In this document: positions 7,896 through 33,810 of the stretch, piece by piece
Layout: each line of letters begins with the position of its first letter
Numbering within the stretch: the first letter of the stretch is position 1
Assembly: GCA_902782235.1 (NCBI GenBank)
Contig: CACZML010000006.1
Location: 1-33,810 of the forward strand
DNA from: Oscillospiraceae bacterium
GTDB lineage: Bacteria > Bacillota > Clostridia > Saccharofermentanales > Saccharofermentanaceae
Direction: 5' to 3'
Length of the DNA stretch: 33,810 bases
Notes under the pieces: model-generated
Databases searched by the model: none
The model's input: only the letters and a program-made list of their open reading frames with translations
Told to the model about the DNA's origin: nothing
Position numbers and translations under genes: made by a program

Positions 7896-10724
7896 ATGCA
7901 TTGTCCAAATTGTGGAAAAGAACTGAATGAGAATCAGAAATTCTGCGGCGGATGCGGATCTGATGTATCCCATCTCTGGCAGCAGGCAGCACCTGCACCG
8001 GTCGAGCCTGCACCCGCAGTTGTTCCTGCTCCCGTTGAGCCTGCACCTGTACCGGCTCCCGTAGAAGCAGCTCCTGCTCCCGCGCCTGCACCGGCACCTG
8101 TTGCAGCAGCACCCGCACCTGCACCGGCTCCTGCTCCTGCACCTGCGCCTGCGCCGGAATCTGCTTTCGGACCTATCGGCACACCTATGCCTACACCCGC
8201 ACCTGTTGCTCCTGCTGCAGGTACTGAGGCTCCGAAGAAAAAGAAGGGCAAGGCAGGTCTTATCATCGGCCTTTCAGTCGGTGGTTTTGTTCTTCTTGCA
8301 GCTATCGTCGTAGGTATTGTTTTCGCTGTAAACAGCATAGCAACTCCTACACCTACACACACGAAGAAGACTACAACGGAATCAACTGACGATCCTACAG
8401 ATACAGAACCCGCTTCAGACAAGGCCAAGAGAACGATCATGGTATATGCGATCGGAACAGACCTTGAATCCAACGGCGCTAACCTTTCTGCTGACGTTAA
8501 GGAAATGATGGCAGCACAGCCCGGCAAGGACGTTAATGTCGTTCTCCAGACAGGCGGATGCAAGGATTTCCAGAATTCATACATGCAGGACGGCGCATGC
8601 CAGCGTTTTGTAATCCAGAACGGCAATATCAAGGAGCTCGAGAACCTTGGTGACGTAAGCATGGTTGAGCAGCAGACATTGCAGGATTTCCTCAAGTTCG
8701 CGAAAGAGAAGTATCCTGCTGAGAACTATATCCTCGTAATGTGGGACCACGGCGGCGGAGTACCTTTGGGATTCGGTCAGGATGAGCTCCACGACGGTAA
8801 GCTCACTGAGATCGAGATCGCTGACGCAATCAGAACTGCTGATATCCAGTACGAGACGATCATCTTCAATGCATGCCTTATGGGTTCACTCGAAGTCGCA
8901 AAGGCTTTGGATCCTTATACAGAGTACATCGTTGCTGCAGAGAGCCCTACATGGGGAAGTGCTTACTATGATGTAGGCATCAACTATACCAACTTCCTTA
9001 ATTATATCGGCAAGGATTTCAAGGGTACTGCAAAAGACTACAGTGAGTACATCGTAAGAGATTACATGGACAATATCGAAGCTACACAGAACGCTACCGG
9101 TTACTACGGTATCGATACATGTATGTCTGCTATCGACACAGATAACATCAATGAAGTTCTGCAGGCTTATGAGAAATTTATCGCAGCTCTCGACAAGCGG
9201 GTTTTCGAGAACAACGGATATGCTGAATATGTACAGTTAAGAGAAGCCTGCGGTTCATTCGAATCCACAGACTCTGTTGACCTTACAACTCTTGCAAGCA
9301 AGTACATCAACTGCGGTGATAAGGAAATCGAGCAGACAGCAAGTAAGCTCATCAACGAAGTCGGCAACTGCGTATTTACTGAGAGCAACAACTCTTACAC
9401 ATATGCACACGGCATGACAACATATGCACCTTATCTCTATCCCCAGTATTACAATGAGGCAAGAATCACATTCAAGACATTGGGTTACCACGATACGACC
9501 ATCGTTTTCTACGATAAGTTCGTAAGTAAGGAACTCTATATCCTTGGCATGACAGATTCTGCAGGTGACTGGTATATCAAGCCGGCTGACGCAGGACAGA
9601 TCAAGTCAGGTAATGTCTATGATATTTCCAACCTCGTTGTAAACATGGGCACTTATGAAGCTATCAAGCTCGAAGAAGATGACTGGAAGGTCATCCGTGA
9701 AGTCAAGGTAACGCTTGCTTATACAATGCCTGAGGAAAAGACTAAGATCTTCTATCTCGGTTCCGACAACCAGTATGAGGTAGATAAGAATAATTACATC
9801 ATTCTCCAGAACCCGACGAAGTGGGTATATTTCAACGAATTCGGATTTGTCACCTGCGAGTGCCTTAAGTATGAGGTTGCAGATGACGGTTCATGGAAGA
9901 AGTACCTTGCTGCAGAAGCACTGGTAAATGACAAGACAGCATATATTGTTATCGCATCAAGCTCTGATAAACCGAACGGAGAGATCATCGGATACTACTA
10001 TGCAGATATCCTCGAAGATAAGTTCGATGCAAACCAGGGCATGCAGTTTACTGATACCGATAAGATCGTATTCCTCCGTGAGTATTACGATTCAACGACC
10101 AAGACAATGAATTACGAGAAGCTTGGTAAGGGCAAGGTAGTATCTTACGAGGAAGCTGTAAAGCTTTACCTGTATTCCAACGTTGATTACGGCGATGTAA
10201 AGGGCTATATCGGATTCGATATCTATGACGTTTACAACAATGACTTCAGACTTCAGTTAAGAGAAGGAAAGCCCGCAGCTGATATCGATCCAAGTGTAAG
10301 AGGTGGTGACAGCAATTTCGATAAGGGCACTACAGATGCTTCCTATATGGTCGGAACAGTTGTTACATACGATGCCGATTCACCTTTCAACGGCGCTACA
10401 TGTGACTTTGTATCTTCAAACAACAAGATCAAATCGGATTCTGTCTACTATAAGGACACCAAGAATATTTCACTGAAGATCGAAGTAGTGAAGAATACGG
10501 ATGAGGAGTATTCCTATGCGTATTACTACAGTGAAGACAATATGTTCTCACAAAGAGAATTCTCTTCTGCTGTAAAGGCCGGCAAGGCAAAGATCAAGAA
10601 GGAAGGTGACAAGTATGTTATCTCCTTCGATAACGAAGAACACATCAAACCGGGCTATTACATTATCATTGTCACAAACAGCGTTGGTGCAAAGCAGGTT
10701 GTGTCTGCGTGCCAGGTAGTTTGA
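7896..10724 (+). CDS. Zinc-ribbon, membrane-anchored clostripain-family (C11) protease
   Basis: A large protein of 942 residues with four parts. Residues 1-21 form a zinc ribbon with Cys3, Cys6, Cys17 and Cys20. Residues about 31-110 are an Ala-Pro-rich linker. A KKKKGK patch precedes one membrane segment (about 121-145). A Thr-rich stalk then leads to a clostripain-like domain starting at RTIMVYAIGTDLESNG (about 179). The catalytic dyad is visible: His285 in MWDHGGG and Cys327 in FNACLMG. The C-terminal 500 residues look beta-rich and extracellular with no recognised domain. The topology implies a cytosolic zinc ribbon and an external protease; relatives cleave after Arg. No signal peptide is present. 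The gene is 18 nt from fprA and 37 nt from ilvB. Confidence 0.85.
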   Translation: MHCPNCGKELNENQKFCGGCGSDVSHLWQQAAPAPVEPAPAVVPAPVEPAPVPAPVEAAPAPAPAPAPVAAAPAPAPAPAPAPAPAPESAFGPIGTPMPTPAPVAPAAGTEAPKKKKGKAGLIIGLSVGGFVLLAAIVVGIVFAVNSIATPTPTHTKKTTTESTDDPTDTEPASDKAKRTIMVYAIGTDLESNGANLSADVKEMMAAQPGKDVNVVLQTGGCKDFQNSYMQDGACQRFVIQNGNIKELENLGDVSMVEQQTLQDFLKFAKEKYPAENYILVMWDHGGGVPLGFGQDELHDGKLTEIEIADAIRTADIQYETIIFNACLMGSLEVAKALDPYTEYIVAAESPTWGSAYYDVGINYTNFLNYIGKDFKGTAKDYSEYIVRDYMDNIEATQNATGYYGIDTCMSAIDTDNINEVLQAYEKFIAALDKRVFENNGYAEYVQLREACGSFESTDSVDLTTLASKYINCGDKEIEQTASKLINEVGNCVFTESNNSYTYAHGMTTYAPYLYPQYYNEARITFKTLGYHDTTIVFYDKFVSKELYILGMTDSAGDWYIKPADAGQIKSGNVYDISNLVVNMGTYEAIKLEEDDWKVIREVKVTLAYTMPEEKTKIFYLGSDNQYEVDKNNYIILQNPTKWVYFNEFGFVTCECLKYEVADDGSWKKYLAAEALVNDKTAYIVIASSSDKPNGEIIGYYYADILEDKFDANQGMQFTDTDKIVFLREYYDSTTKTMNYEKLGKGKVVSYEEAVKLYLYSNVDYGDVKGYIGFDIYDVYNNDFRLQLREGKPAADIDPSVRGGDSNFDKGTTDASYMVGTVVTYDADSPFNGATCDFVSSNNKIKSDSVYYKDTKNISLKIEVVKNTDEEYSYAYYYSEDNMFSQREFSSAVKAGKAKIKKEGDKYVISFDNEEHIKPGYYIIIVTNSVGAKQVVSACQVV
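7985..8165 (+). repeat. Ala-Pro coding repeat in the clostripain-family gene
   Basis: Degenerate 6-12 nt units based on GCACCTGCACCGG or GCTCCTGCACCT encode runs of Pro-Ala with interspersed Val and Glu (for example [17 protein letters not shown]). The region links the zinc ribbon to the membrane segment. Such a repeat can change length by slippage, and it also produces a long spurious open frame on the opposite strand. Confidence 0.8.
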
Positions 10725-21748: not shown

Positions 21749-22921
21749 ATGCCCAGAAAGAAGAATGAAGAGGAACCCAAGGATACAATAGTAAGTCTTG
21801 TTAAGCTCCTCGCTGAAGAAAGAGACATCGACGAAGAAGAAGTATTCCAGGCGATCGAGAGCGGTCTTGTTGCAGCATACAGACGTGAGTTCGGCGGCAA
21901 CAAGCAGGATATCAAGTCCGTAAGTGCTGAGATCGACAGAGAGACAGGCGAGATCTACGTTTATAAGCTCGCTGAGGTCGTTGATGATGTAGTTGACGAG
22001 GCTAACGAGATTTCCATTGAAGATGCTAAAGAGCTTGGCTATGAGGATGTTGAAGTCGGAGACGAGATCGAGATCGGTATCGACGTTGAAGACTTAGGAC
22101 GCCTTGCTGCAAGCGCTGCAAAGAATGCGATCAACCAGAAGCTCAGAGATGCTGAGTCTTTAAAGATCGAAAAGGAGTTCTCCGGCAAGATCGGTGAGAT
22201 CACATCCGGTACGATCGTTCGTAAGGACGCAAGAAACGTATACGTAAACATCGGCCGTGCTGAAGCTATCGTTAAGCACGACGGCCAGATCAGAAATAAC
22301 AGAAACGAGCATTACGATCAGGACAGGATCATGAAGTTCCTCGTTATGGGCGTTGAAGAAGCTAACGGCAGACCTTCCGTTGTTCTTTCCAGAACAGACG
22401 CAAGACTCGTTACAAAGCTTTTCGAGCTCGAGGTACCTGAGATCAAAGCAGGCGACGTTGTCATCAGATCCGTTGCAAGAGAAGCAGGCTCCAGAACAAA
22501 GGTTGCTGTTTACTCCAAGGATCCCGATATCGATGCAAAGGGTTCCTGCGTTGGTCAGAGAGGCCAGAGAGTTCAGCAGATCATGAACGAGCTCGCAGAA
22601 GAGAAGATCGACATCGTTGACTGGAAGGAAGATCCGGCACTCTTCATCAGCGAAGCTTTGCAGCCTGCAAAGGTTTCCAGAGTTGATACCGAGATCACAA
22701 CAAACGAGAATGGTGAAGTCGAGAGATATGCAAAGGTTATCGTACCTGACCAGCAGTTCTCACTTGCAATCGGTAAGAGCGGCCAGAATGTACGTCTTGC
22801 TGCAAGACTTACTGGTTTCAAGATCGACATCAAGAAAGAGTCTGACGAGAGCGTAGAAGCATCCAAGGCACTTATCGATGACTTTACAGTCGTTGATGAC
22901 GAAGCAGGTAAGAACGAGTAA
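21749..22921 (+). CDS. nusA: Transcription termination/antitermination factor NusA
   Basis: NusA binds RNA polymerase and modulates pausing, intrinsic termination and antitermination. The 390-residue length is typical of Firmicutes; the C-terminal acidic repeats of Proteobacterial NusA are missing. The N-terminal polymerase-binding domain (about 12-130) is followed by an S1 domain (GEITSGTIVRKDARNVYVNIG), KH1 (DPDIDAKGSCVGQRGQRVQ) and KH2 (PDQQFSLAIGKSGQNVRLAA). AGGAGG lies 8 nt before the ATG. It is 28 nt after rimP. A terminator in the operon leader offers a site for autoregulation. Confidence 0.97.
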   Translation: MPRKKNEEEPKDTIVSLVKLLAEERDIDEEEVFQAIESGLVAAYRREFGGNKQDIKSVSAEIDRETGEIYVYKLAEVVDDVVDEANEISIEDAKELGYEDVEVGDEIEIGIDVEDLGRLAASAAKNAINQKLRDAESLKIEKEFSGKIGEITSGTIVRKDARNVYVNIGRAEAIVKHDGQIRNNRNEHYDQDRIMKFLVMGVEEANGRPSVVLSRTDARLVTKLFELEVPEIKAGDVVIRSVAREAGSRTKVAVYSKDPDIDAKGSCVGQRGQRVQQIMNELAEEKIDIVDWKEDPALFISEALQPAKVSRVDTEITTNENGEVERYAKVIVPDQQFSLAIGKSGQNVRLAARLTGFKIDIKKESDESVEASKALIDDFTVVDDEAGKNE

Positions 22922-22942
22922 TAAGCAAAGCGATCAGAAGTT

Positions 22943-23218
22943 ATGAAGAAAAAGCCGCAAAGAAGTTGTGTATCCTGCAGAACGGTAAGAGATAAGAGCG
23001 ATCTCCTGCGTGTCGTTGTAACACCCGATGGTGATGTTGCGTACGACCCGACCGGCAAGCTCGCCGGAAGAGGCGCTTACCTTTGCCGTAATGAGGAATG
23101 CATAACAGCTGAGCTTAAGAAGGCAGCAAAGCTTTCCAAGGGACTTAAGAAGCCTTTGACAGAAGAAGAGATCAAGGAACTTGCTAAATCACTTTTGGAG
23201 AGCATAAAGGAAGAGTAA
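22943..23218 (+). CDS. ylxR: YlxR family RNA-binding protein (RnpM)
   Basis: This 91-residue nucleic-acid-binding protein lies between nusA and infB in most Firmicutes; Bacillus YlxR has been linked to RNase P modulation and named RnpM. The family pattern is clear: RSCVSCRTVRDKSDLLRVV near the N-terminus, then DPTGKLAGRGAYLC. The C-terminal half is Lys-rich and helical. Its TAA shares one base with the ATG of the next gene, so translation is coupled. Confidence 0.93.
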   Translation: MKKKPQRSCVSCRTVRDKSDLLRVVVTPDGDVAYDPTGKLAGRGAYLCRNEECITAELKKAAKLSKGLKKPLTEEEIKELAKSLLESIKEE

Positions 23219-23550
23219 TGACAGATAAGGAAAGAGCATACGGAATGATCGGGCTTGCCACAAGGGCAGGCAAGGCAGTATCGGGAAGTGATGCGGTGGC
23301 CGGAGCGGTCCGCGCAGGCAACGTAAAACTCCTGATAATCACCAAAGACATTTCGGGCAATTCTTTGGACAGGATCTTAAAGAACATAAAGGGAAAAGAA
23401 GAGATACCCTGCTACAGTTTCGGAAGATCTGATGAACTGGGAGATGCCTTAGGGAAACCTGCAAGAACAGTTGCGGCAATTACTGATAAAAGCTTTGCGG
23501 ATGGAATTTCCGCCATACTCGAGAAAATCAACGAGGAGGAAGATACTTGA
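23218..23550 (+). CDS. ylxQ: YlxQ, L7Ae/L30e-family RNA-binding protein
   Basis: The product has 110 residues and is a K-turn-type RNA-binding fold. The L7Ae pattern is visible: [18 protein letters not shown] near the N-terminus, [17 protein letters not shown] (core strand and RNA-binding loop) and [19 protein letters not shown]. It overlaps ylxR by 1 nt and infB by 1 nt (TGA and ATG share the A at 23550). The position between ylxR and infB is standard for Firmicutes. The biological role is still not well defined. Confidence 0.92.
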
Positions 23551-26411
23551 TGAGTGAAGATATCGATAATAAGAAGAAAGACTTAACCGTCGGAGGCGTG
23601 TCCGGCAGTAAGAAGATGAGGCTCGGAAGAGTCCATAAAAAGAAGACAGAAGATGCACCCGAAGCAGCAGCTCCGGCAGTTGAGGCAAAGGTTGAGACAC
23701 CCGCACCTGCACCTGCTCCCGCTCCTGTTGAAGAGGTTAAGCCTGTAAAGAAGGCAGCAGCTAAGAAGACTGAAGAGGAAAAGCCGGCTGAAGAGAAGAA
23801 GCCTGCTAAGAAGTCTGCTGCAAAGACAGAAAAGACTGAGAAGACAGAGAAGGCTGAAGCTCCCGCAAAGAAGACTTCCGCAAAGAAGGCTTCCGAGAAG
23901 AAGGAAGCTGAAGCTGCTCCTGAAGCTCCTGCAGAAGAAAAGAAGCCTGCAAAGAAGGCTCCTGCAAAAGCTCCCAAGACTGAAGCCAAGCCCGAGAAGA
24001 AGGCTGAAGAGCCTGCTGCAAAGGCACCTGAGGCTAAGGAAGTCAAGGAAGAGAAGAAGCCTGAAGTTAAGCCTGAGGCAACACCTGAGGTCAAGCCCGA
24101 GCCTGTAAAGGAAGAGAAGAAGCCTGAAGAAAAGCCCGTACAGCCCGCAAAGCCGAGGCTCTCATCAGCTGTAATCTCACTTCCTGACGTTCCCGCAAGA
24201 GGCGAGACTATCAGAAGCTCCACGGTTATTACTTATGCCGGAAGAGATAAGAAGAGCCCGATGAGATCAGGTGGCCAGGGCGGCTACAATAACAACAGAC
24301 AGGGCGGCTTCCAGAAGCAGGGCGGCGGTTTCCAAAAGCCCGCTGGCGGCGGATTCGATAAGGACAAGGACGACGATAACCAGCGTCCTCAGTTCAAGAG
24401 AGCACCCAAGCCGAGAGCTGAGGCTCCTATCGAAGATGCAAAGAAGAGCAGATCTTCTTATGCCGAGAAGAGTGCTTTCGAGAAGAAGCACAATAACAAT
24501 GACAGAAGAGACGGCGAGAAGAACGCCAATATCGATAAGAGAAAGCAGTCAAGAACTTCGCAGTTCACAGGCCGTGTTAACAGCGATGGTGATTATGATG
24601 ATTTCTCATTCAAGAAGAAGAAAAAGAAGCAGGAGACACAGCAGTCTGTTGTTGAGCAGGTAATCACTGAGATCAAGATCCCTGCTTTCATTACAGTTAA
24701 GGAATTCGCTGAAGGTATCGGCAAGAAGAGCTCCGACATCATCATGGCTTTGATGAAGCTCGGCGTTATGGCTACCATCAACCAGGAACTCGATTTCGAT
24801 ACTGCATGCCTCGTTGCAGACAGCTTCGGAATCAATGCCGAACTCTTAGAGGAGAAGACAGAGGAAGATATCCTCTTTACAGATGAGGATAATCCGGAGA
24901 ACCTCGAGACAAGACCTCCGGTTGTCGTTGTTATGGGTCACGTTGACCATGGTAAGACATCACTCCTCGATAAGATCAGATCATCCAACGTTACTGAAGG
25001 CGAAGCCGGCGGTATCACACAGAAGATCGGTGCTTACACGGTAAGACTTAAGGGCCGTCAGATCACATTCCTCGACACCCCTGGTCACGAAGCGTTCACA
25101 ACGATGAGAGCAAGAGGTGCACAGTTCACGGATATCGCTATTCTCGTTGTTGCTGCAGACGACGGTGTAATGCCTCAGACGATCGAAGCTATCAACCACG
25201 CAAAGGCTGCTAACACAGAGATCATCGTTGCGATCAACAAGATCGATAAGCCGGGCGCAAATCCTGACAGAGTTAAGCAGGAGCTTACACAGTACGGTCT
25301 CGTATGCGAGGAATGGGGCGGCCAGACGATCATGGTACCTATCTCTGCAAAGCAGGGTACAGGTATTGATGACCTTCTCGAAAATGTATTGCTCACAGCA
25401 GACATCATGGAGCTCAAGGCCGATCCTAAGAGCCAGGCAAAGGGTGCCGTTATCGAAGCTAAGCTCGACAAGAACAGAGGTGCTGTTGCATCCGTTCTCA
25501 TCCAGCGCGGTACTTTGAGACAGGGTGATACAGTTGTCTGCGGTCCTATCTTGGGCAACGTAAGAGCTATGTACGACGATAAGGGTATGCCGATCAAGAA
25601 GGCAGGTCCTTCGATCCCTGTTGAGATCTTAGGTCTTCCTGAGGTTCCTCAGGCAGGTGAGATCCTCTATGCAGTATCTGACGATAAGACAGCAAGACAG
25701 CTTGTTGAAAAGCGTAAGATCAAGCAGAGAGAAGAGCAGCTCCACAGATCATCCAAGATGAGCCTTGATACGCTCGCAGCCCAGATGGCAGCAGGCGATG
25801 TTAAGGATCTCAACATCATCATCAAGGCTGACGTCCAGGGTTCTGTTGAAGCCGTTCAGCAGTCACTTGAGAAGCTCACAAATGAGGAAGTTAAGATCAA
25901 CGTTATCCACGGCGCAGTCGGTGCGATCAACGAATCAGATATCGTACTTGCTGACGTTTCAAATGCTATCATCATCGGCTTCAACGTAAGACCTTCACAG
26001 ATGATCATCGATAAGGCAAAAGAGACCGGCGTAGACATCAGACTTTACAGCGTCATCTATAACGCGATCGAAGATGTCGAGAACGCTATGAAGGGTATGC
26101 TTGCACCTAAGATCGAAGAAGTCATCTGGGGTCATGCCGAAGTCAGACAGCTCTTCAAGGTCAGCGGTATCGGTACTATCGGAGGCTGCTATGTTACTGA
26201 CGGTAAGATCCTCAGAGCATCCAACGTCAGAGTCATCAGAGACGACGTTGTCGTATACACAGGCGTCCTTGGTTCTTTGCAGCACGAGAAGGATTCCGTT
26301 AAGGAAGTTCTGTCAGGACACGAGTGCGGTCTTACAGTCGAGAAGTATAACGACATTAAGATCGGCGACGTTATCGAAGCTTTCGGCAACGTCGAAGTAA
26401 AGAGGGACTGA
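23550..26411 (+). CDS. infB: Translation initiation factor IF-2
   Basis: This GTPase brings initiator tRNA to the 30S subunit and promotes subunit joining. The ATG at 23550 is 9 nt after GAGGAGGA; an in-frame TTG at 23547 is less likely. The protein has 953 residues, long for a Firmicute. Residues about 30-215 are a Lys/Ala/Pro/Glu low-complexity tract. Residues about 238-275 are Gly/Gln/Asn/Phe-rich ([18 protein letters not shown]). The IF2_N domain then precedes the G domain, whose G1 GHVDHGKT starts at Gly463, followed by [17 protein letters not shown] (G3) and NKIDKP (G4). The C-terminal domains II, III and IV are complete, with the final C2 domain containing [14 protein letters not shown]. 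Confidence 0.97.
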
Positions 26412-26412
26412 T

Positions 26413-26826
26413 ATGAAAAACAGAAGACCTGAGATAGTTGGAGATGAGATCCAGAAGATCGTCTCCACGATTATCTCAACCAAGTTAAAGGATCCCAGAG
26501 TTCCTTTGCTTACATCTGTTACGTCCGTTAAGATGAGCAGGGATCTGTCGCATGCCACGATCTTCATCTCCGTTTATGGCGATGAGAAGACACAAAAGGA
26601 AGCGATGGAAGCTATCGAGCATGCAAAAGGTTTCATCCGTTACGAGACTGTGCAGGAGATCAATCTGAGAGTTGCTCCTGAATTCAGCTTCAAGCTCGAC
26701 AACACTCTTAACAATGCGTTAAGGATGGAAGCTTTGATCGAGAAAACGATCAAGGAAGACGAAGCAAGGAGACTTGCCAGAGAAGAAAGAGAAGGCAAGT
26801 CTGAAGATAGCCCGGCAGAAGAGTGA
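26413..26826 (+). CDS. rbfA: Ribosome-binding factor A
   Basis: RbfA is a single KH-like domain protein that binds the 5' helix of 16S rRNA and helps 30S maturation. The protein has 137 residues. It has the family opening RRPEIVGDEIQKIVSTII, then LLTSVTSVKMSRDLSHATIFISVYG and the ending EFSFKLDNTLNNALRMEALIEKT. The C-terminal 30 residues are acidic and charged, a common variable tail. It begins 1 nt after the infB stop with AGAGGG inside infB as ribosome binding site. ylxP, found between infB and rbfA in Bacillus, is absent. Confidence 0.95.
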   Translation: MKNRRPEIVGDEIQKIVSTIISTKLKDPRVPLLTSVTSVKMSRDLSHATIFISVYGDEKTQKEAMEAIEHAKGFIRYETVQEINLRVAPEFSFKLDNTLNNALRMEALIEKTIKEDEARRLAREEREGKSEDSPAEE

Positions 26827-26862
26827 TCTCCTGCCTCTAACGCTGTTTAGAACGGAGTTTTT

Positions 26863-27927
26863 ATGAGAGAACGCTATAAGGAAGGCAGCAGAAGAACTGC
26901 CATGAACATCTTAAGCGTTATAGAGAAGCTCAAGGCGGGCAACGAGCTCGTCCTTGTCTTCCCGCATAGAAGCGTTGACGGTGACTGTGTCGGTTCCAGC
27001 ACCGGCATCGTAAGCATTATCAGGTCTTTGGGAGTAGATGCTTATGTGGCTATTCCTGAAGCTTTACCTGAGAACATGGAATTCTTAGGCATCAGTGAGT
27101 ACCTTTTCCGTCCCGACGGAGATACTGATGAAGCAGCAGAATTCAAGAACAATAAGACCATTGGAGGCAAGAAAGTCGGCGCGGTCATCGCGACCGATAT
27201 TTCGGACAGTTCGAGAATGGGAATCAGCGGTGAGATATTCGATTCGGTAGACACCAAGCTCGTTATCGACCACCATGCTTCCGTAATTCACAGATCCGAT
27301 AATATGTGGATCGATCCGGACAGTTCATCCGCAAGTGAGATGGTCTACTATGTTGCTCTTCAGATCGCAGACATCACGGGCCGGGACGTAAGCGAAGTTC
27401 TTGCTCCCAATGCCGCGAAAGCAGTTCTTGCCGGAATCGTTACCGACACCGGAAGATTCACATTTACAAATACACGTCCTGAGACTCTTGAGACAGCAGG
27501 CGCGCTCATTGATCTGGGCGGCAACATCTCACAGGTCTGCTACAACCTTTTCGACCGTAAGGCAAAAGCAAAGTTCCAGTTATCGGCTAAGGCAAGATCT
27601 GAAGTAAGATTCTTCTTTGATGACAAGTTCGCGCTGACAGTAGTTCCTTATGAACAGTTCAAGATGTTCGGCGCAGGTCCTGACGGCGTTGACGATGTTG
27701 TATCCGCAATGCGTGATATCGACGGAGTCGAGCTCGCCATCGTTTTAAGAGAACTTGAGAACGGCGAGATAAGGGGAAATGTAAGATCCCAGGAATACTT
27801 TGACTGCAGCACATTCGCAGCCGGCTTTGGCGGCGGCGGACATGTAAGAGCTGCAGGTTTTAACGCATCAGGCGACATTAACGAACTCGCTGAAGAAGTA
27901 ATCAAGAGGGTTCAGGCAACCTTATGA
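26863..27927 (+). CDS. nrnA: DHH-DHHA1 phosphoesterase, NrnA-like
   Basis: A 354-residue cytosolic phosphoesterase of the NrnA family, which degrades nanoRNA and pAp and in some species cyclic dinucleotide products. The DHH domain has the Mn ligands PHRSVDGDCVGSS (His35, Asp39, Asp41), IATDISDSSRMG (Asp112) and VIDHHAS (Asp136-His137-His138), and GIVTDTGRF further on. The DHHA1 domain ends with the substrate motif FGGGGHVRAAG. Usual members read NPDGD where this has SVDGD. The CGGAG ribosome binding site lies about 7 nt before the ATG. It is 36 nt after rbfA, and the stop overlaps truB by 4 nt (ATGA). Confidence 0.92.
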   Translation: MRERYKEGSRRTAMNILSVIEKLKAGNELVLVFPHRSVDGDCVGSSTGIVSIIRSLGVDAYVAIPEALPENMEFLGISEYLFRPDGDTDEAAEFKNNKTIGGKKVGAVIATDISDSSRMGISGEIFDSVDTKLVIDHHASVIHRSDNMWIDPDSSSASEMVYYVALQIADITGRDVSEVLAPNAAKAVLAGIVTDTGRFTFTNTRPETLETAGALIDLGGNISQVCYNLFDRKAKAKFQLSAKARSEVRFFFDDKFALTVVPYEQFKMFGAGPDGVDDVVSAMRDIDGVELAIVLRELENGEIRGNVRSQEYFDCSTFAAGFGGGGHVRAAGFNASGDINELAEEVIKRVQATL

Positions 27928-28865
27928 TCCAAGACGGTTTCATCCTTGTAGATAAGCCTGAAGGATGGACGTCCTTTAAGACTGACCGATTCGTCGGCAA
28001 ACTCCTTGGCACACGCAAAGTCGGGCATTTGGGAACATTAGATCCGTTTGCAACGGGTCTTCTTCCCGTGTTCGTCGGCAAGGGCTTGAAGTTCTTAAGG
28101 TTCTGCGAAGGCTTTGACAAGGGGTATTCCTGCAGGTGCATTTTCGGCGCGACAACGGACACGATGGATAAGACCGGTGAATTCACTTCTGAGAATTATC
28201 CTTCATCTGAAGTTTTAGAGCAGCTCGAAAATACAGACTACAAGCTGGTCTACGACGCGGCAATGAAGGTCAAGGACACCAAAGAGCAGCTCCCGCCCGC
28301 ATATTCAGCCAAGAAGATCGACGGAGTAAAGGCATATGAACTCGCAAGAAAAGGCGAGATGCCTGACTTAAAGCCTGCACAGGTTACGATCTATTCGCTT
28401 GATATTACTGATATTTCGAGAACCGAAAAGAGCTTTGCGATCGATTTTGACTGCATGTGCTCCAAGGGTACATATATCAGAACGATCTGCTCTGACTTAG
28501 GTGATATTACAGGCTTTGGCGCGTATGCCGAATCTTTGAGAAGAACGGTCAACGGGCAGTTCAACGTTAAGGATGCATTCACGCCCGACGAGCTTGAGAA
28601 GATGGCGGAAGAAGGCGATTTCTCATTCGTAAGGGATGCCGCTGAGACAATAACTTTCCTGCCTGAGATAAAGCTCGATCCGAAGCAGACAAAGGATATC
28701 AAGTTCGGAAGAAAGATAGCGTTTCCGTTGGATGTTAAGCCTGAAGGTGAAGAGCGCATCTATTACAGGGCGACATCGGAAGGCAAGCTTATCGCAGTTG
28801 TTTTCCCGGCTTTGGAAAACGGCGGATTATTAATGAGGATCGAGAGGCTTTACGCACATGATTAA
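27924..28865 (+). CDS. truB: tRNA pseudouridine-55 synthase
   Basis: TruB makes the conserved pseudouridine at position 55 in the T loop of tRNAs. The protein has 313 residues. Motifs present are DKPEGWTSFK, the catalytic GHLGTLDPFATGLLPV with Asp40, CRCIFGATTDTMDKTG, QLPPAYSAKKIDGVKAYELARKG and CSKGTYIRTICSDLG. A C-terminal PUA-like tail follows. Its ATG is inside the nrnA stop (ATGA overlap of 4 nt) and its end overlaps ribF by 8 nt. The tight overlaps show a continuous translational unit. Confidence 0.96.
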   Translation: MIQDGFILVDKPEGWTSFKTDRFVGKLLGTRKVGHLGTLDPFATGLLPVFVGKGLKFLRFCEGFDKGYSCRCIFGATTDTMDKTGEFTSENYPSSEVLEQLENTDYKLVYDAAMKVKDTKEQLPPAYSAKKIDGVKAYELARKGEMPDLKPAQVTIYSLDITDISRTEKSFAIDFDCMCSKGTYIRTICSDLGDITGFGAYAESLRRTVNGQFNVKDAFTPDELEKMAEEGDFSFVRDAAETITFLPEIKLDPKQTKDIKFGRKIAFPLDVKPEGEERIYYRATSEGKLIAVVFPALENGGLLMRIERLYAHD

Positions 28866-29790
28866 AGTATGCAATACGTATGGTCTTAACGATCTGCCTC
28901 TGGGCTCAAAGGGAAGAGTGATAGCGCTCGGAATGTTCGACGGCCTTCATTCAGGACACATGGATATCATCAAGAAAGCTGTCATGACGGCCGAAAGAGA
29001 CGGCCTTACATCAACGGTCCAGACATTTAAGAATCTGTTTAAGCAGGACAGCAAATCACTTTATACATCTGAAGAGAGATTGAATCTGGTAAGCAGGACC
29101 GGTGCTGACGAACTTCTGGTCTTGGACTTCGATGAAGTAAAGGACATGGAGCCGGAGGATTATCTTAAGAACGTGCTCCTTTACCGCTGCATAGCGGACA
29201 CGCTCATAATGGGCGAGGACTACAGGTTCGGCAAAGGCGCCAGGGGCGACGTTGCCATGATAAAGGAATTTGCAAAGGCAAATGATATCCGCGTGATCGT
29301 GGTAAAAGACCATCTGCACGAAGGAACAGGCAGAAAGATCTCTACGACATGGCTCAGGGAAGCTTTGTCGGAGGGTGATGTCGATCTCGCAAGAGAACTT
29401 TGCGGCGGAAGGAATTACTTCTATTCCGGACGCTGCGTTCAGGGAAAGCAGCTCGGAAGGACGATGGGTTTTCCGACGGCGAATATCATTGTTCCTGAAG
29501 ATAAGTTCGTCGTTAAAAGGGGCGTCTACGTGTCGCGCGTTAAGCTGGGACAGAGGATCCTTTACGGCGTTACCAATATCGGCAGGAGACCTACGCTCGA
29601 AGATGCGGTAAATGATGTTGTCGAGACTTATATTTTCGACTTTGACGAGGACATTTACGGGGCAAATCTTGAGGTCGAGCTCATGCATTTCTTGAGACCT
29701 GAATCGAAGATGACATCTAAAGAAGAACTGATAGATGCCGTAAATCTTAATAAAACGCAGGCCAAAGACTACCTCAAAAACCTCAATTAG
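28858..29790 (+). CDS. ribF: Bifunctional riboflavin kinase / FAD synthetase
   Basis: This enzyme phosphorylates riboflavin to FMN and adenylates FMN to FAD. The 310-residue protein has the N-terminal nucleotidyltransferase domain with GMFDGLHSGHMDII and GEDYRFGKGARGD, then KISTTWLREAL. The C-terminal flavokinase domain has LGRTMGFPTANI, RGVYVSRV and NIGRRPT, ending VELMHFLRPESKM. It closes the operon and overlaps truB by 8 nt. No clear terminator is visible in the 95 nt before lgt. Confidence 0.96.
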   Translation: MIKVCNTYGLNDLPLGSKGRVIALGMFDGLHSGHMDIIKKAVMTAERDGLTSTVQTFKNLFKQDSKSLYTSEERLNLVSRTGADELLVLDFDEVKDMEPEDYLKNVLLYRCIADTLIMGEDYRFGKGARGDVAMIKEFAKANDIRVIVVKDHLHEGTGRKISTTWLREALSEGDVDLARELCGGRNYFYSGRCVQGKQLGRTMGFPTANIIVPEDKFVVKRGVYVSRVKLGQRILYGVTNIGRRPTLEDAVNDVVETYIFDFDEDIYGANLEVELMHFLRPESKMTSKEELIDAVNLNKTQAKDYLKNLN

Positions 29791-29830
29791 ACCGAAATTG
29801 ATGCCTTAAAAAGCCATATTATTTATTTTG

Positions 29831-29839
29831 TGGTAATAT
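29831..29839 (+). promoter_or_regulatory. Extended -10 promoter candidate for lgt-rodA
   Basis: TGG directly precedes TAATAT (29834-29839), about 47 nt before the lgt start. A TTGATG at 29798-29803 is too far to act as its -35. The call rests on the extended -10 and its placement in an AT-rich gap after ribF. Confidence 0.45.
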
Positions 29840-29885
29840 ATCAGGGATTTACTGACCCAAAAGGGTGCAGGGAGGATATAGATAC

Positions 29886-30761
29886 ATGATGAACTTGGTT
29901 GAAGTTAAGTTTCCGGGCCTCGGAATCGACGTGAATGTTAATCCCGTCGCTTTTTCGATCGGCAGCATTGAAGTTTACTGGTACGGTCTTCTGATCGCGT
30001 CAGCAATTGTTTTGTCAGTTGTTCTGGCAGTAAAACAGGCGAAAAAACTGTATTTCCCGGAGACTCTCGTTTACGATACAGTCCTCATGATCATTCCCTG
30101 TGCGATCATCGGCGCAAGACTTTATTTTGTTGCCTGCAACTGGGATTACTACGGCCAGGACTTAAGGAGGATCTTTGATTTCAGATCCGGCGGTCTTGCT
30201 ATCTATGGCGGCGTTATCCTCGTATTCATCGGCGGACTCGTTATGTGCCGCATCAGAAAGATCCCGTTCAGGGAACTTGCTGACTACTGCGTAGTATACC
30301 TTCCTTTGGGACAGGCGATCGGCAGATGGGGCAACTTCTTCAACCAGGAGTGCTTCGGTACGAACACATCACTTCCCTGGGGTATGACAAGCTCCACGAT
30401 CGAAGGTTACCTCAGCCAGAATTGTCCTACACTCGTATCAACAATGCCGGTTCATCCGACATTCCTTTATGAGTCTTTGGCTGACCTTGCGATCTTCTTC
30501 ATCCTTATCTATGTAAGAAAGCACTCGAAGATCCCCTTCGAGACATCATGCGCATATTTCGCACTTTATGGAACAGTAAGATTCTTCATCGAAGGCATCA
30601 GAACTGATTCGCTCTACATCGGCAATACTGGCATCAGGACTTCACAGCTCCTGTCACTTATCCTTGTCGTTGCTGCACTTGCTTATATCGCAGTTGCAAG
30701 AGTAAAGAAGTTCGAGAAGAGTGGCTTCCCTGAAAAGTTATATCTCGAGGAAAAGAACTGA
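29886..30761 (+). CDS. lgt: Prolipoprotein diacylglyceryl transferase
   Basis: Lgt attaches diacylglycerol to the lipobox cysteine of prelipoproteins at the membrane; two such lipoproteins are encoded in this window. The start at 29886 is 10 nt after GGAGG; the longer frame from 29865 would include the ribosome binding site itself. The protein has 291 residues and about seven membrane helices. Family motifs are YWYGLLIASAIVL, GARLYFV, the signature GQAIGRWGNFFNQECFG, and MPVHPTFLYES. The rodA gene starts 2 nt after its stop. Confidence 0.96.
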   Translation: MMNLVEVKFPGLGIDVNVNPVAFSIGSIEVYWYGLLIASAIVLSVVLAVKQAKKLYFPETLVYDTVLMIIPCAIIGARLYFVACNWDYYGQDLRRIFDFRSGGLAIYGGVILVFIGGLVMCRIRKIPFRELADYCVVYLPLGQAIGRWGNFFNQECFGTNTSLPWGMTSSTIEGYLSQNCPTLVSTMPVHPTFLYESLADLAIFFILIYVRKHSKIPFETSCAYFALYGTVRFFIEGIRTDSLYIGNTGIRTSQLLSLILVVAALAYIAVARVKKFEKSGFPEKLYLEEKN

Positions 30762-30763
30762 TA

Positions 30764-31888
30764 ATGAGTAAGGCTGGTTCCGGCGTTGTAAGACTTCGCG
30801 GGAAAGACGGTCTCAAGGCCGTCGACTATTATCTTGTCGTTCCGGTTCTTACGATGACGATAATCGGCCTTTATGTTCTTCAGAAAGTTTTATCCAAAGG
30901 TTATGCCGCTTACCCCGGAAACTACTACAGACAGATAGTAGCTACCGTTGGCGGCGTTATCTGTGCATTGATAATCTCACTGCTCGATGAACACCTCCTT
31001 AAAGCACTGGGAAGGATCATCTATGCGGTTGCGCTTTTCCTTCTGGTCCTGGTTCCGATCGACGGCTATTCACTGGCCGGCACATGGGGCGCCGACTCGT
31101 GGCTGAAGCTTCCTGTAATCGGTAACTTCCAGCCGTCCGAGCTCGCGAAAATCGGTCTTGTCATGCTGGCGGCCGATATTTTCGAACAGATGCATAACAA
31201 AGAAGTAACCATGCTCAAGGGCTTCGGTAAGATGGCTGCAGTCTATGCGCCGCCGATGCTCCTTATCCTCGCACAGCCTGACTTCGGTACCGCGATGGTT
31301 ATCGTATTTACATTCATCTGTATGCTGTTTGCGTGGGGAGTCAGATACAGATACTTCCTTCTCGCATTTTCATCTTTCGTCGTTATCATCGTTCCTTTGG
31401 TATGGTCATTCTATCTGAAGCCCTACCAGAAGGAGAGGATCTTATCGCTCCTGTTCCAGGGTTCGTCACCTCAGTCAGAGTACAACCTCCAGCAGTCCAA
31501 GCTGGCCATAGCTTCAGGCGGTCTTTCCGGAAACCACACCGGAATCTTAACGTCCGTTCCGGTTAAGGAGAGTGACTTCATTTTCGCCGCCATCTCAGAG
31601 CATATGGGATTTATCGGAACGACGACTGTAATCATCCTCGCATTCTTCTTCCTTTGCCGGTGCCTTTATGTTGCTGCAAATATCAAGTCCAAATCCGCAT
31701 CCTATATGATGACCGGATTTACGGGATATTTCGCATTCCACTTTATCGAGAATATGGGCATGGCAGTAGGCCTTCTCCCGATCACCGGTATTCCTTTGCC
31801 GTTCATGAGTTTGGGAGGCACGGCGATGCTCATCAATTTCATTGCGTTCGGAGTTCTTCTGAATATTTCTATCAACCGTAATATGTAG
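30764..31888 (+). CDS. rodA: RodA/FtsW-family peptidoglycan glycosyltransferase
   Basis: A SEDS glycan polymerase of 374 residues with about ten membrane helices. It needs a class B penicillin-binding protein partner. Motifs are FQPSELAKIGLVMLAA, ILAQPDFGTAM, FIFAAISEHMGFIG and the C-terminal LLPITGIPLPFMSLGGTAM. The large extracellular loop carries KERILSLLFQG and the residues YNLQQSKLAIASGGLSG. The short length and the absence of a division-type context favour RodA over FtsW, though this split is not certain. It begins 2 nt after lgt, with AGGAAAAG in the end of lgt as ribosome binding site. Confidence 0.92.
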   Translation: MSKAGSGVVRLRGKDGLKAVDYYLVVPVLTMTIIGLYVLQKVLSKGYAAYPGNYYRQIVATVGGVICALIISLLDEHLLKALGRIIYAVALFLLVLVPIDGYSLAGTWGADSWLKLPVIGNFQPSELAKIGLVMLAADIFEQMHNKEVTMLKGFGKMAAVYAPPMLLILAQPDFGTAMVIVFTFICMLFAWGVRYRYFLLAFSSFVVIIVPLVWSFYLKPYQKERILSLLFQGSSPQSEYNLQQSKLAIASGGLSGNHTGILTSVPVKESDFIFAAISEHMGFIGTTTVIILAFFFLCRCLYVAANIKSKSASYMMTGFTGYFAFHFIENMGMAVGLLPITGIPLPFMSLGGTAMLINFIAFGVLLNISINRNM

Positions 31889-31903
31889 TGCCGGAGGCAT
31901 CTT

Positions 31904-33810
31904 GTGAAGGGTAAATGGAGACAGAATCTTCATATCGAACCGCCCGAAGGTTGGATGAACGACCCTAACGGACTATGCTTTTTTGACGGCAATTATCATG
32001 TGTATTTCCAGTATTCGCCGGGCACACCACGCGGGGGGAGCGTAAGGCGCTGGGGTCACTATGTTAGCCCTGATCTTCTTTCATGGAAATATAAGGGAAT
32101 TGTTCTTAATGCCGACATTCCGGAAGACCGTGACGGCGTGTTCTCAGGCTGTGCTCTGCCTTCTGACGGCCATATCGATTTCTTCTACACGGGAAATGTC
32201 ATGGAGGAAGGCGATCACGATTACGTTCTTGAAGGACGCGGCGCGAATGTGATCCATGTTACGTCTCCTGACGGTTCTTCCATGTCTTCGAAAAAAGTCC
32301 TTCTCAGAAACAGCGACTATCCGGAATTCTGTTCATGCCATGTAAGAGATCCCAAGGTCTGGATCGAAGACGGATCATATAAGATGGTATTAGGCGCGCG
32401 TACAAAAGACGATAAAGGCTGCGTGCTTCTTTACGAAGGCACTGACATTGATTCACTTGAATATAAGAAATGTTATATAGCTCCCGAAATGGGATATATG
32501 TGGGAATGTCCTGACCTCTTCGAAATATCAGGAAATAAGTTCCTTGCATTCTGCCCTCAGGGAATCCCCCAGGGTGAATTCAAATATCAGAACCTTTTCC
32601 AGAGCGGATATTTCACTTTTGATGGTGATGAGCTTTCTGGTTTTGAAGAATTCGATTACGGCTTTGATTTCTATGCTCCTCAGACATTTACTGCTCCTGA
32701 CGGCAGAAGACTTCTCATCGGCTGGATGGGGATCGGCGATGATTCATATACTAATCCGACTATAGATCTCGGCTGGCAGCATTGTCTTACACTGCCGCGC
32801 GAACTGACTGTTGGCGGAGACGGAAAGATACTGCAAAACCCCATTCGTGAGATTGATTCTTTAAAGAAGAAAACAAAGCCTGTCGAAGGCGAAGCCTGGG
32901 AAGGCCTGCCCTTCGAAGTTGGTGCATCTGATTTTGCAGATAACGTATCAGTAAGCATATCCGGTGCTGAGATCACATGGGATAAAGAAAGCGGAGTTTT
33001 AAGTCTGCATTTTACTAATGACGAAGGCTACGGAAGGCGCGAAAGAAAGATCCTTTTGGAATCACTAGAGTCGCTCCGCATCATAGCTGATGTATCTTCA
33101 TTGGAAATATATATCAACGGCGGCCGCTATGTGATGGGCACGAGGTTCTATCCTGAGCACCGCCAGGTAAAGATTGAAGTAAGAGGAGCATCCGCTTTTG
33201 TAAGTCAGCTCAGGCTTAATGATACACTCGTTGCCATAGGCGAAGCGTTAATAGATTTCATTCCTGACAAGAAGGGCTGCGAATTCCACGAAGTAGGTTC
33301 ATTCTCTCCTGCGACGGGCGGCGCTCCTGCAAATGTCTGCGGAGCATTCTCCAGACTTGGCGGCAAGTCCCGCATGATCACCCAGCTTGGGCGTGACCCG
33401 TTCGGCGATGTCATCACACGAACGCTCAATGAAGCAGGTGTTGATACTTCTTATATTTCTTATACAACTAAAGCTAATACCGCGCTCGCGTTTGTAAGCC
33501 ATACGGCGGACGGGAAGAGCACATATTCTTTCTACAGGAATCCGTCGGCGGATATGCTTTTCGAGCCTTCCAACGTAACAGAAGAGATGCTGGGCGACTG
33601 CTATGCGCTCCATTTCTGCAGTGTGTCCTTAGGTGACTTCCCTATGAAGGATGCTCACCGCGCTGCGATCACTATCGCGAGGAGACAGGGTGCGATCGTA
33701 AGCTTCGATCCCAACCTGAGATTCATGCTGTGGGATGACAGGGATGCTCTTAAGAGAGTTATTTGGGAATTCCTGCCAGACTGCGACATCCTGAAGATCT
33801 CTGATGAAGA
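31904..33810 (+). CDS. GH32 sucrose(-6-P) hydrolase fused to PfkB fructokinase (3' truncated)
   Basis: The frame is open from GTG at 31904 (GGAGG 6 nt upstream) to the window end, so at least 635 residues. Residues 1 to about 435 are a GH32 beta-fructosidase with nucleophile Asp20 in WMNDPNG, Asp149 in RDPK and the acid/base Glu201 in ECPDLF. From about residue 440 a PfkB fructokinase begins without a stop: VAIGEALIDFIP, then GGAPANVCGAFSRLGG, QLGRDPFGD and FYRNPSADML. The catalytic GxGD motif lies beyond the window. The protein would hydrolyse sucrose or sucrose-6-P and phosphorylate the released fructose. I checked the frame base by base across the junction and found no stop. It lies 15 nt after rodA. 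Confidence 0.92.
   Translation, partial: MKGKWRQNLHIEPPEGWMNDPNGLCFFDGNYHVYFQYSPGTPRGGSVRRWGHYVSPDLLSWKYKGIVLNADIPEDRDGVFSGCALPSDGHIDFFYTGNVMEEGDHDYVLEGRGANVIHVTSPDGSSMSSKKVLLRNSDYPEFCSCHVRDPKVWIEDGSYKMVLGARTKDDKGCVLLYEGTDIDSLEYKKCYIAPEMGYMWECPDLFEISGNKFLAFCPQGIPQGEFKYQNLFQSGYFTFDGDELSGFEEFDYGFDFYAPQTFTAPDGRRLLIGWMGIGDDSYTNPTIDLGWQHCLTLPRELTVGGDGKILQNPIREIDSLKKKTKPVEGEAWEGLPFEVGASDFADNVSVSISGAEITWDKESGVLSLHFTNDEGYGRRERKILLESLESLRIIADVSSLEIYINGGRYVMGTRFYPEHRQVKIEVRGASAFVSQLRLNDTLVAIGEALIDFIPDKKGCEFHEVGSFSPATGGAPANVCGAFSRLGGKSRMITQLGRDPFGDVITRTLNEAGVDTSYISYTTKANTALAFVSHTADGKSTYSFYRNPSADMLFEPSNVTEEMLGDCYALHFCSVSLGDFPMKDAHRAAITIARRQGAIVSFDPNLRFMLWDDRDALKRVIWEFLPDCDILKISDE

Follow-up and report, generated by a model that had tools for sequence, protein, structure and literature searches.

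The window, i.e., the whole stretch of DNA that was analysed, is an entire contig (C6) of 33810 bases from a 2.55 Mb assembly of 210 contigs and 92% completeness (G000), whose host is a bacterium akin to the rumen Saccharofermentans. A single frame beginning at the GTG codon at 31904 runs without a stop to the contig end and encodes a GH32 hydrolase joined to a PfkB kinase (Table 1). This fused gene is the last of a nusA-infB-rodA run and stands directly after rodA, and the scan of the 15-base gap between the two gave no terminator-like site on the + strand. Since the window is the whole contig, the last ~119 residues of the kinase are absent here, and a search for the missing end elsewhere in the assembly, carried out without a positive control, gave no match. 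No signal peptide was evident by eye in the window protein. The same genome contains a second GH32-like gene of 349 aa on contig C26 (L002, 1492-2541), with WLGNPCG in place of the usual WMNDPNG and, therefore, lacking the nucleophile Asp; GH32-like matches of similar size are common in the genus.

Table 1. Positions of the fused gene, its parts and its upstream neighbours in the window
Feature	Position	Strand	Remarks
nusA (from 21749), infB, rbfA, nrnA-like, truB, ribF, lgt (to 30761)	21749..30761	+	
rodA-like gene	30764..31888	+	TIGR02210 293.6 bits, below the cut-off of 336.7; 15 bases upstream of the fusion
GGAGG, likely ribosome-binding site	31893..31897	+	6 bases before GTG; read by eye
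Fused GH32-PfkB gene	31904..33810	+	GTG start, open at the contig end, 635 codons
GH32 catalytic domain PF00251	31931..32842	+	Residues 10-313, E 5.1e-76, above cut-off
GH32 catalytic residues	31961 (Asp20 codon), 32348 (Asp149 codon), 32504 (Glu201 codon)	+	
Met100 codon	32201..32203	+	Lys position in PTS-linked relatives
GH32 C-terminal domain PF08244	32972..33181	+	Residues 357-426, E 1.8e-8, above cut-off
Short linker	33212..33223	+	Residues 437-440, placed from the model of relative P0001
PfkB kinase domain PF00294	33224..33805	+	Residues 441-634, E 3.6e-29, first two thirds only

The initial annotation had described the hydrolase and the kinase as one chain with no stop or frameshift, which agrees with the single frame and with PF00251, PF08244 and PF00294 all being above their cut-offs, the last of them at 102.5 bits against 25.8. 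The catalytic residues it had named were all found in place, with Asp20 in NDPNG, Asp149 in RDP and Glu201 in EC, and the kinase domain proposed to begin at about residue 440 starts, by PF00294, at 441. The kinase motifs GGAPANV and DPNLR are inside the window, while GAGD falls beyond the contig. The architecture itself was recovered among homologues: 7996 candidates were scored, 7518 passed and 120 were listed, 100 of which bear both domains (BLAST; some are fragments), a proportion that represents no frequency because the fused query itself set the similarity ranking of the list. Relatives were encoded by 114 stretches of the genome collection, and retention of the best 80 led to 76 loci. 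There, 31 further loci (L007-L036 and L045) contain single ORFs of 753-839 aa with both domains, including the fused locus L036 of Ruminococcaceae bacterium YRB3002, whose record title carries no MAG label. The full-length fused relatives are of about 755 aa with the kinase end included, GAGD is invariant across 52 aligned fused proteins, and the catalytic motifs of both halves are invariant or nearly so in these proteins down to 43% identity; a stricter GAGD pattern matched 132 of 145 rows, the pattern being too strict. The open junction in 31 loci, together with the invariant GAGD, argues against the stop or assembly error at the junction that would have undone the fusion, and an assembly artefact or frameshift was ruled out, since these loci come from many records and are fused at the same place. 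The GH32 part is lengthened in L021, L023, P0048 and P0063 by repeat-like inserts (runs of the SENAKSEP or GVAGVDG type), with the frame intact.

The AlphaFold2 model of the relative P0001, built with the 52-protein alignment, has a mean pLDDT of 91.3 and a pTM of 0.84. Its last GH32 strand spans residues 430-436 and its first kinase strand 441-445, with about 4 residues between them, so that the linker proposed at 5-10 residues is indeed short, and slightly shorter than was proposed. The Foldseek search with this model returned the GH32 enzymes 7vco, 6nu7 and 3pig, and the Xylella fructokinase 3lki with a TM of 0.90 by target. The best solved sequence matches of the kinase are also fructokinases, 3ljs and 5ey7, and among the 60 listed of 97 PDB sequence matches none spans both halves in its best stretch. 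The fructokinase model NF006957 (PRK09434) gave 204.4 of 450 bits for P0001, which is below the cut-off, yet it was the best kinase model. Three other PfkB matches in the assembled genome resemble a KDG kinase, a 1-phosphofructokinase-type hexose kinase and ThiD, and the glucokinase subfamily is the best fit for its two ROK kinases (255.4 and 222.4 of 260.35, both under the cut-off), one of which also matches a fructokinase model weakly.

That the two activities normally belong to separate genes, as had been proposed, was seen in the relatives, where GH32 and PfkB are encoded by separate neighbours. In 16 unfused loci read at the base level, with GH32 followed by PfkB, the genes overlap by 8 bases in six cases, by 11 in three and by 4 in one, three more show longer apparent overlaps with uncertain starts, and the remaining gaps are of 0, 14 and 80 bases. 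The flanks of these pairs contain a PTS permease gene in 12 of 16 and a PTS enzyme I gene in 7 of 16. With the sucrose IIBC model TIGR01996, the permease (two were tested) reached 555.2 of 559.3 bits, i.e., just below the cut-off, and it carries IIA; the one enzyme I tested passes TIGR01417. In the clade A2, the fused gene occupies the place of the unfused pair in the PTS cassette, and the order rodA, small genes, permease, fusion, enzyme I was found in L031, L033 and L034. In the window's clade A1 (26 loci), rodA is next upstream in 24, at a distance of 1-21 bases; the other two have lgt upstream, a longer ORF reading having hidden the intervening stretch. Downstream, mraZ is the next gene in 15 of the 26, the MraZ of L098 scoring below the cut-off of its model. 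In L065 of Roseburia porci (7923-10364), GH32 and PfkB lie in the same frame, split by one stop followed immediately by ATG.

According to the kinase trees, the forward fusions fall into three clades (A1, A2 and B) interspersed with unfused rows, P0082 standing on its own; the GH32 tree shows broadly the same picture, with a weaker support for A1 (87/79). The AU tests on the kinase rejected no one-clade tree, the p values being 0.372 for A1 with A2, 0.377 for A1 with A2 and P0082, 0.613 for A1 with P0082, and 0.229 for all forward fusions; the common place behind rodA favours a single origin of A1 and A2. P0134, a protein of 780 aa named sucrose-6-phosphate hydrolase [Clostridium sp.], is not accounted for by a single forward event, because its domains are in the reverse order (PfkB at 1-311, GH32 at 333-766). 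The clade B fusion was found in none of the 12 above-threshold genomes when 391 genomes of the class were searched with P0098; in one genome of this search (G255), an adjacent pair has two stops inside the match.

The presence of the phosphotransferase system was surveyed in 59 genomes, including 35 from the genus. The assembled genome of the window showed no match to PTS EI (PF05524) or EIIC (PF02378), and the same searches were positive in 18 and 21 of the 59 genomes, respectively. The fusion was present in 15 genomes of the genus, in 14 as one match and in G016 via a 796-aa ORF. Neither EI nor EIIC was found in 13 of the 15, that of the window included, ten of these 13 being at least 90% complete and three at 64, 84 and 89%; in the other two (G012 and G030), both were detected, on the same contig. 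Six genomes of the genus carry unfused neighbours: neither PTS protein was found in G007, G031 and G032, G022 and G026 carry the two, and in G028, whose contig begins at the GH32 gene, EI alone is present. Thus, the loss of the PTS is not tied to the fusion alone, as three of the unfused genomes are also PTS-less.

The PTS linkage is followed in the hydrolase by residue 100, directly after YTGNV, which is Met in the window protein. In the first comparison, of 14 PTS-linked with 26 A1 sequences, Lys was present in 14/14 versus 0/26, and nine columns passed the criterion, that of residue 100 among them. In all 76 loci, with the PTS labels taken mostly from flanks of up to 8 kb, Lys was found in 24/24 of those flanked by PTS genes and Lys or Arg in 1/52 of the rest. 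This exception is L065 of Roseburia porci, which has Lys100 although its flanks contain no PTS gene, and which may have PTS genes elsewhere. The PTS-less unfused loci and 13 Enterobacterales loci with an MFS permease (L066, L069-L072, L074-L080 and L082) stood outside the column criterion, and all but L065 are without Lys or Arg in the 76-locus table. By balanced accuracy, column 100 was the best of 410 (0.990 versus 0.941 for the next). On a tree built without this column, seven independent pairs on supported branches differ in the PTS, and Lys changes the same way in six, the opposite way in none and shows no difference in one (sign test, p 0.031, uncorrected, for a column chosen post hoc). 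L103, which overlaps the region of L038, figures among the 76 rows of the table but not among the 75 of the tree; the table excludes L060 and L062 as too fragmentary or too short, and P0082, with Lys, was left out of its counts. L093 resembles P0087 of the clade A1 by its residues. The sucrose-6-phosphate hydrolase of L. gasseri has Arg at this place, and the other four enzymes aligned have Val, Trp, Trp and Thr. Residue 100 is predicted to touch the phosphate of sucrose-6-phosphate. Lys100 is kept in the fused P0072 and P0082, in the reversed P0134 and in the listed clade B rows, which would, therefore, be sucrose-6-phosphate enzymes, and for the clade B the PTS linkage is a prediction only, made from its Lys100. 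In L094 (7352-9079, genome G006), one ORF combines a NUDIX domain (5-115) with a GH32 enzyme (142-558) in which Glu occupies the position of residue 100.

Sucrose-6-phosphate, which the initial annotation had taken as the substrate, became doubtful with the lack of EI and EIIC matches in the assembled genome and with Met in place of Lys100; with no PTS found, plain sucrose is likely. The main reading, to which we give a probability of about 0.6, is that the gene encodes one cytoplasmic GH32-PfkB chain, derived from a pair of a PTS cassette and acting likely on non-phosphorylated sucrose, with the predicted products glucose and fructose and then fructose-6-phosphate. A sucrose PTS cassette with neighbouring scrB and scrK genes would have landed behind rodA, the two enzymes would have fused, and the PTS permease and enzyme I would then have been lost in the window's lineage, the replacement of Lys100 by Met accompanying the change of substrate from sucrose-6-phosphate to sucrose. 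Sucrose would enter by a transporter and be split in the cytoplasm by the GH32 half, the attached kinase would convert the freed fructose to fructose-6-phosphate, and the glucose may be phosphorylated by one of the two ROK kinases of the genome. The fusion would fix the hydrolase and kinase steps at 1:1 at least, and a direct channelling of fructose between the sites is putatively possible. According to PMC7833758, the Km of a Fusobacterium mortiferum enzyme is 0.28 mM for sucrose-6-phosphate and 40 mM for sucrose, so that a PTS-less genome could gain from a substrate switch. A sucrose importer was seen neither next to the fusion nor in the two ABC regions that were read in detail, out of three taken up among the 11 SBP_bac_1 matches of the genome; by eye, and with Pfam run on their binding proteins, L127 adjoins MalQ- and glycogen-phosphorylase-like genes and L128 resembles a polyamine system.

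It is unlikely, although to be kept in view, that the protein is still a sucrose-6-phosphate hydrolase with a fructokinase, fed by a PTS missed in an assembly of 92% completeness and 210 contigs. In accordance with this, the window protein just passes TIGR01322, the sucrose-6-phosphate hydrolase model (356.6 versus 356.4 bits, with the relative P0001 under it at 352.4), and Arg48, the counterpart of L. gasseri Lys74 as counted on the alignment, is still basic; at this subsite -1 position, PMC7833758 lists Lys74 for L. gasseri and Met81 for B. longum. However, Lys100 is lost, and EI and EIIC are both absent from all 13 fusion-bearing genomes of this kind in the genus, ten of them being at least 90% complete. 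That the hydrolase has a different fructoside as its main substrate, for instance kestose or a further fructo-oligosaccharide, with the kinase using the fructose, appears rather improbable: the GH32 enzymes located beside ABC transporters in gut bacteria do degrade kestose and nystose (PMC7833758), but neither a fructan gene nor an importer stands beside the fusion in the loci read. Least of all would the gene be a weakly selected remnant of little activity after the PTS loss, since, for all the dismantling of the sucrose operon in the window's clade and the repeat-like inserts in the GH32 part of the four relatives named above, 31 loci retain an open frame and the catalytic motifs of the 52 fused proteins are kept.

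Beyond the main reading, a wider scenario is put forward only tentatively, in which the fusion arose more than once in gut Clostridia and in both orders, outlived its transporter in Saccharofermentans, was turned from sucrose-6-phosphate to sucrose after the PTS loss by the single change of Lys100 to Met, Leu or Glu, and became a self-contained sucrose module within the infB-rodA-mraZ growth operon that passes fructose between its active sites.

Compared with the separate ScrB/SacA (TIGR01322; solved as 6nu7) and ScrK of the sucrose PTS operon, the fused protein would perform the same two steps in the same hydrolase-then-kinase order, and closely related unfused pairs are found in Ruminococcus-type loci; the differences are one chain instead of two and, in the window's clade, the lack of PTS genes together with the replacement of Lys100 by Met. 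The PTS-free sucrose hydrolases beside an MFS permease in the Enterobacterales loci, which we take to be of the CscA type, likewise act likely on free sucrose, and have Phe or Trp, not Lys or Arg, at the place of residue 100; unlike the fusion, they are unfused, only 33-37% identical in GH32, and have their own permease adjacent. PfkB kinases fused to other enzymes of sugar breakdown are represented by the IolC-aldolase (NF047869) and the KHG/KDPG aldolase-kinase (NF041633), whose partner is, however, an aldolase and not a glycoside hydrolase, and whose scores here are far below the cut-offs. The initial annotation knew of no characterised example of the GH32-PfkB combination, and full-text searches of the open-access literature, which leaves most subscription journals outside, gave no description of the fusion, as judged by titles and the beginnings of abstracts. 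Within this literature, the parts are already known; what is new is their joining in one chain and the variant of it without a PTS.

Residue 100 is one testable residue that may separate the sucrose-6-phosphate hydrolases from the sucrose hydrolases in GH32, and the natural series of fused and unfused pairs makes glycosidase-kinase channelling comparable. In the window's clade, an enzyme of a sugar pathway has apparently outlived its own transporter and stands now behind rodA in a run of growth genes. The related kinase was also met with another partner: in P0121 (725 aa), a kinase 58% identical to that of P0001 is joined to an N-acylglucosamine 2-epimerase-type domain, PF07221. Mannose and glucose isomerase activities are associated with this fold, and, if this half were such an isomerase, P0121 would be another fructose-making enzyme fused to a fructokinase.
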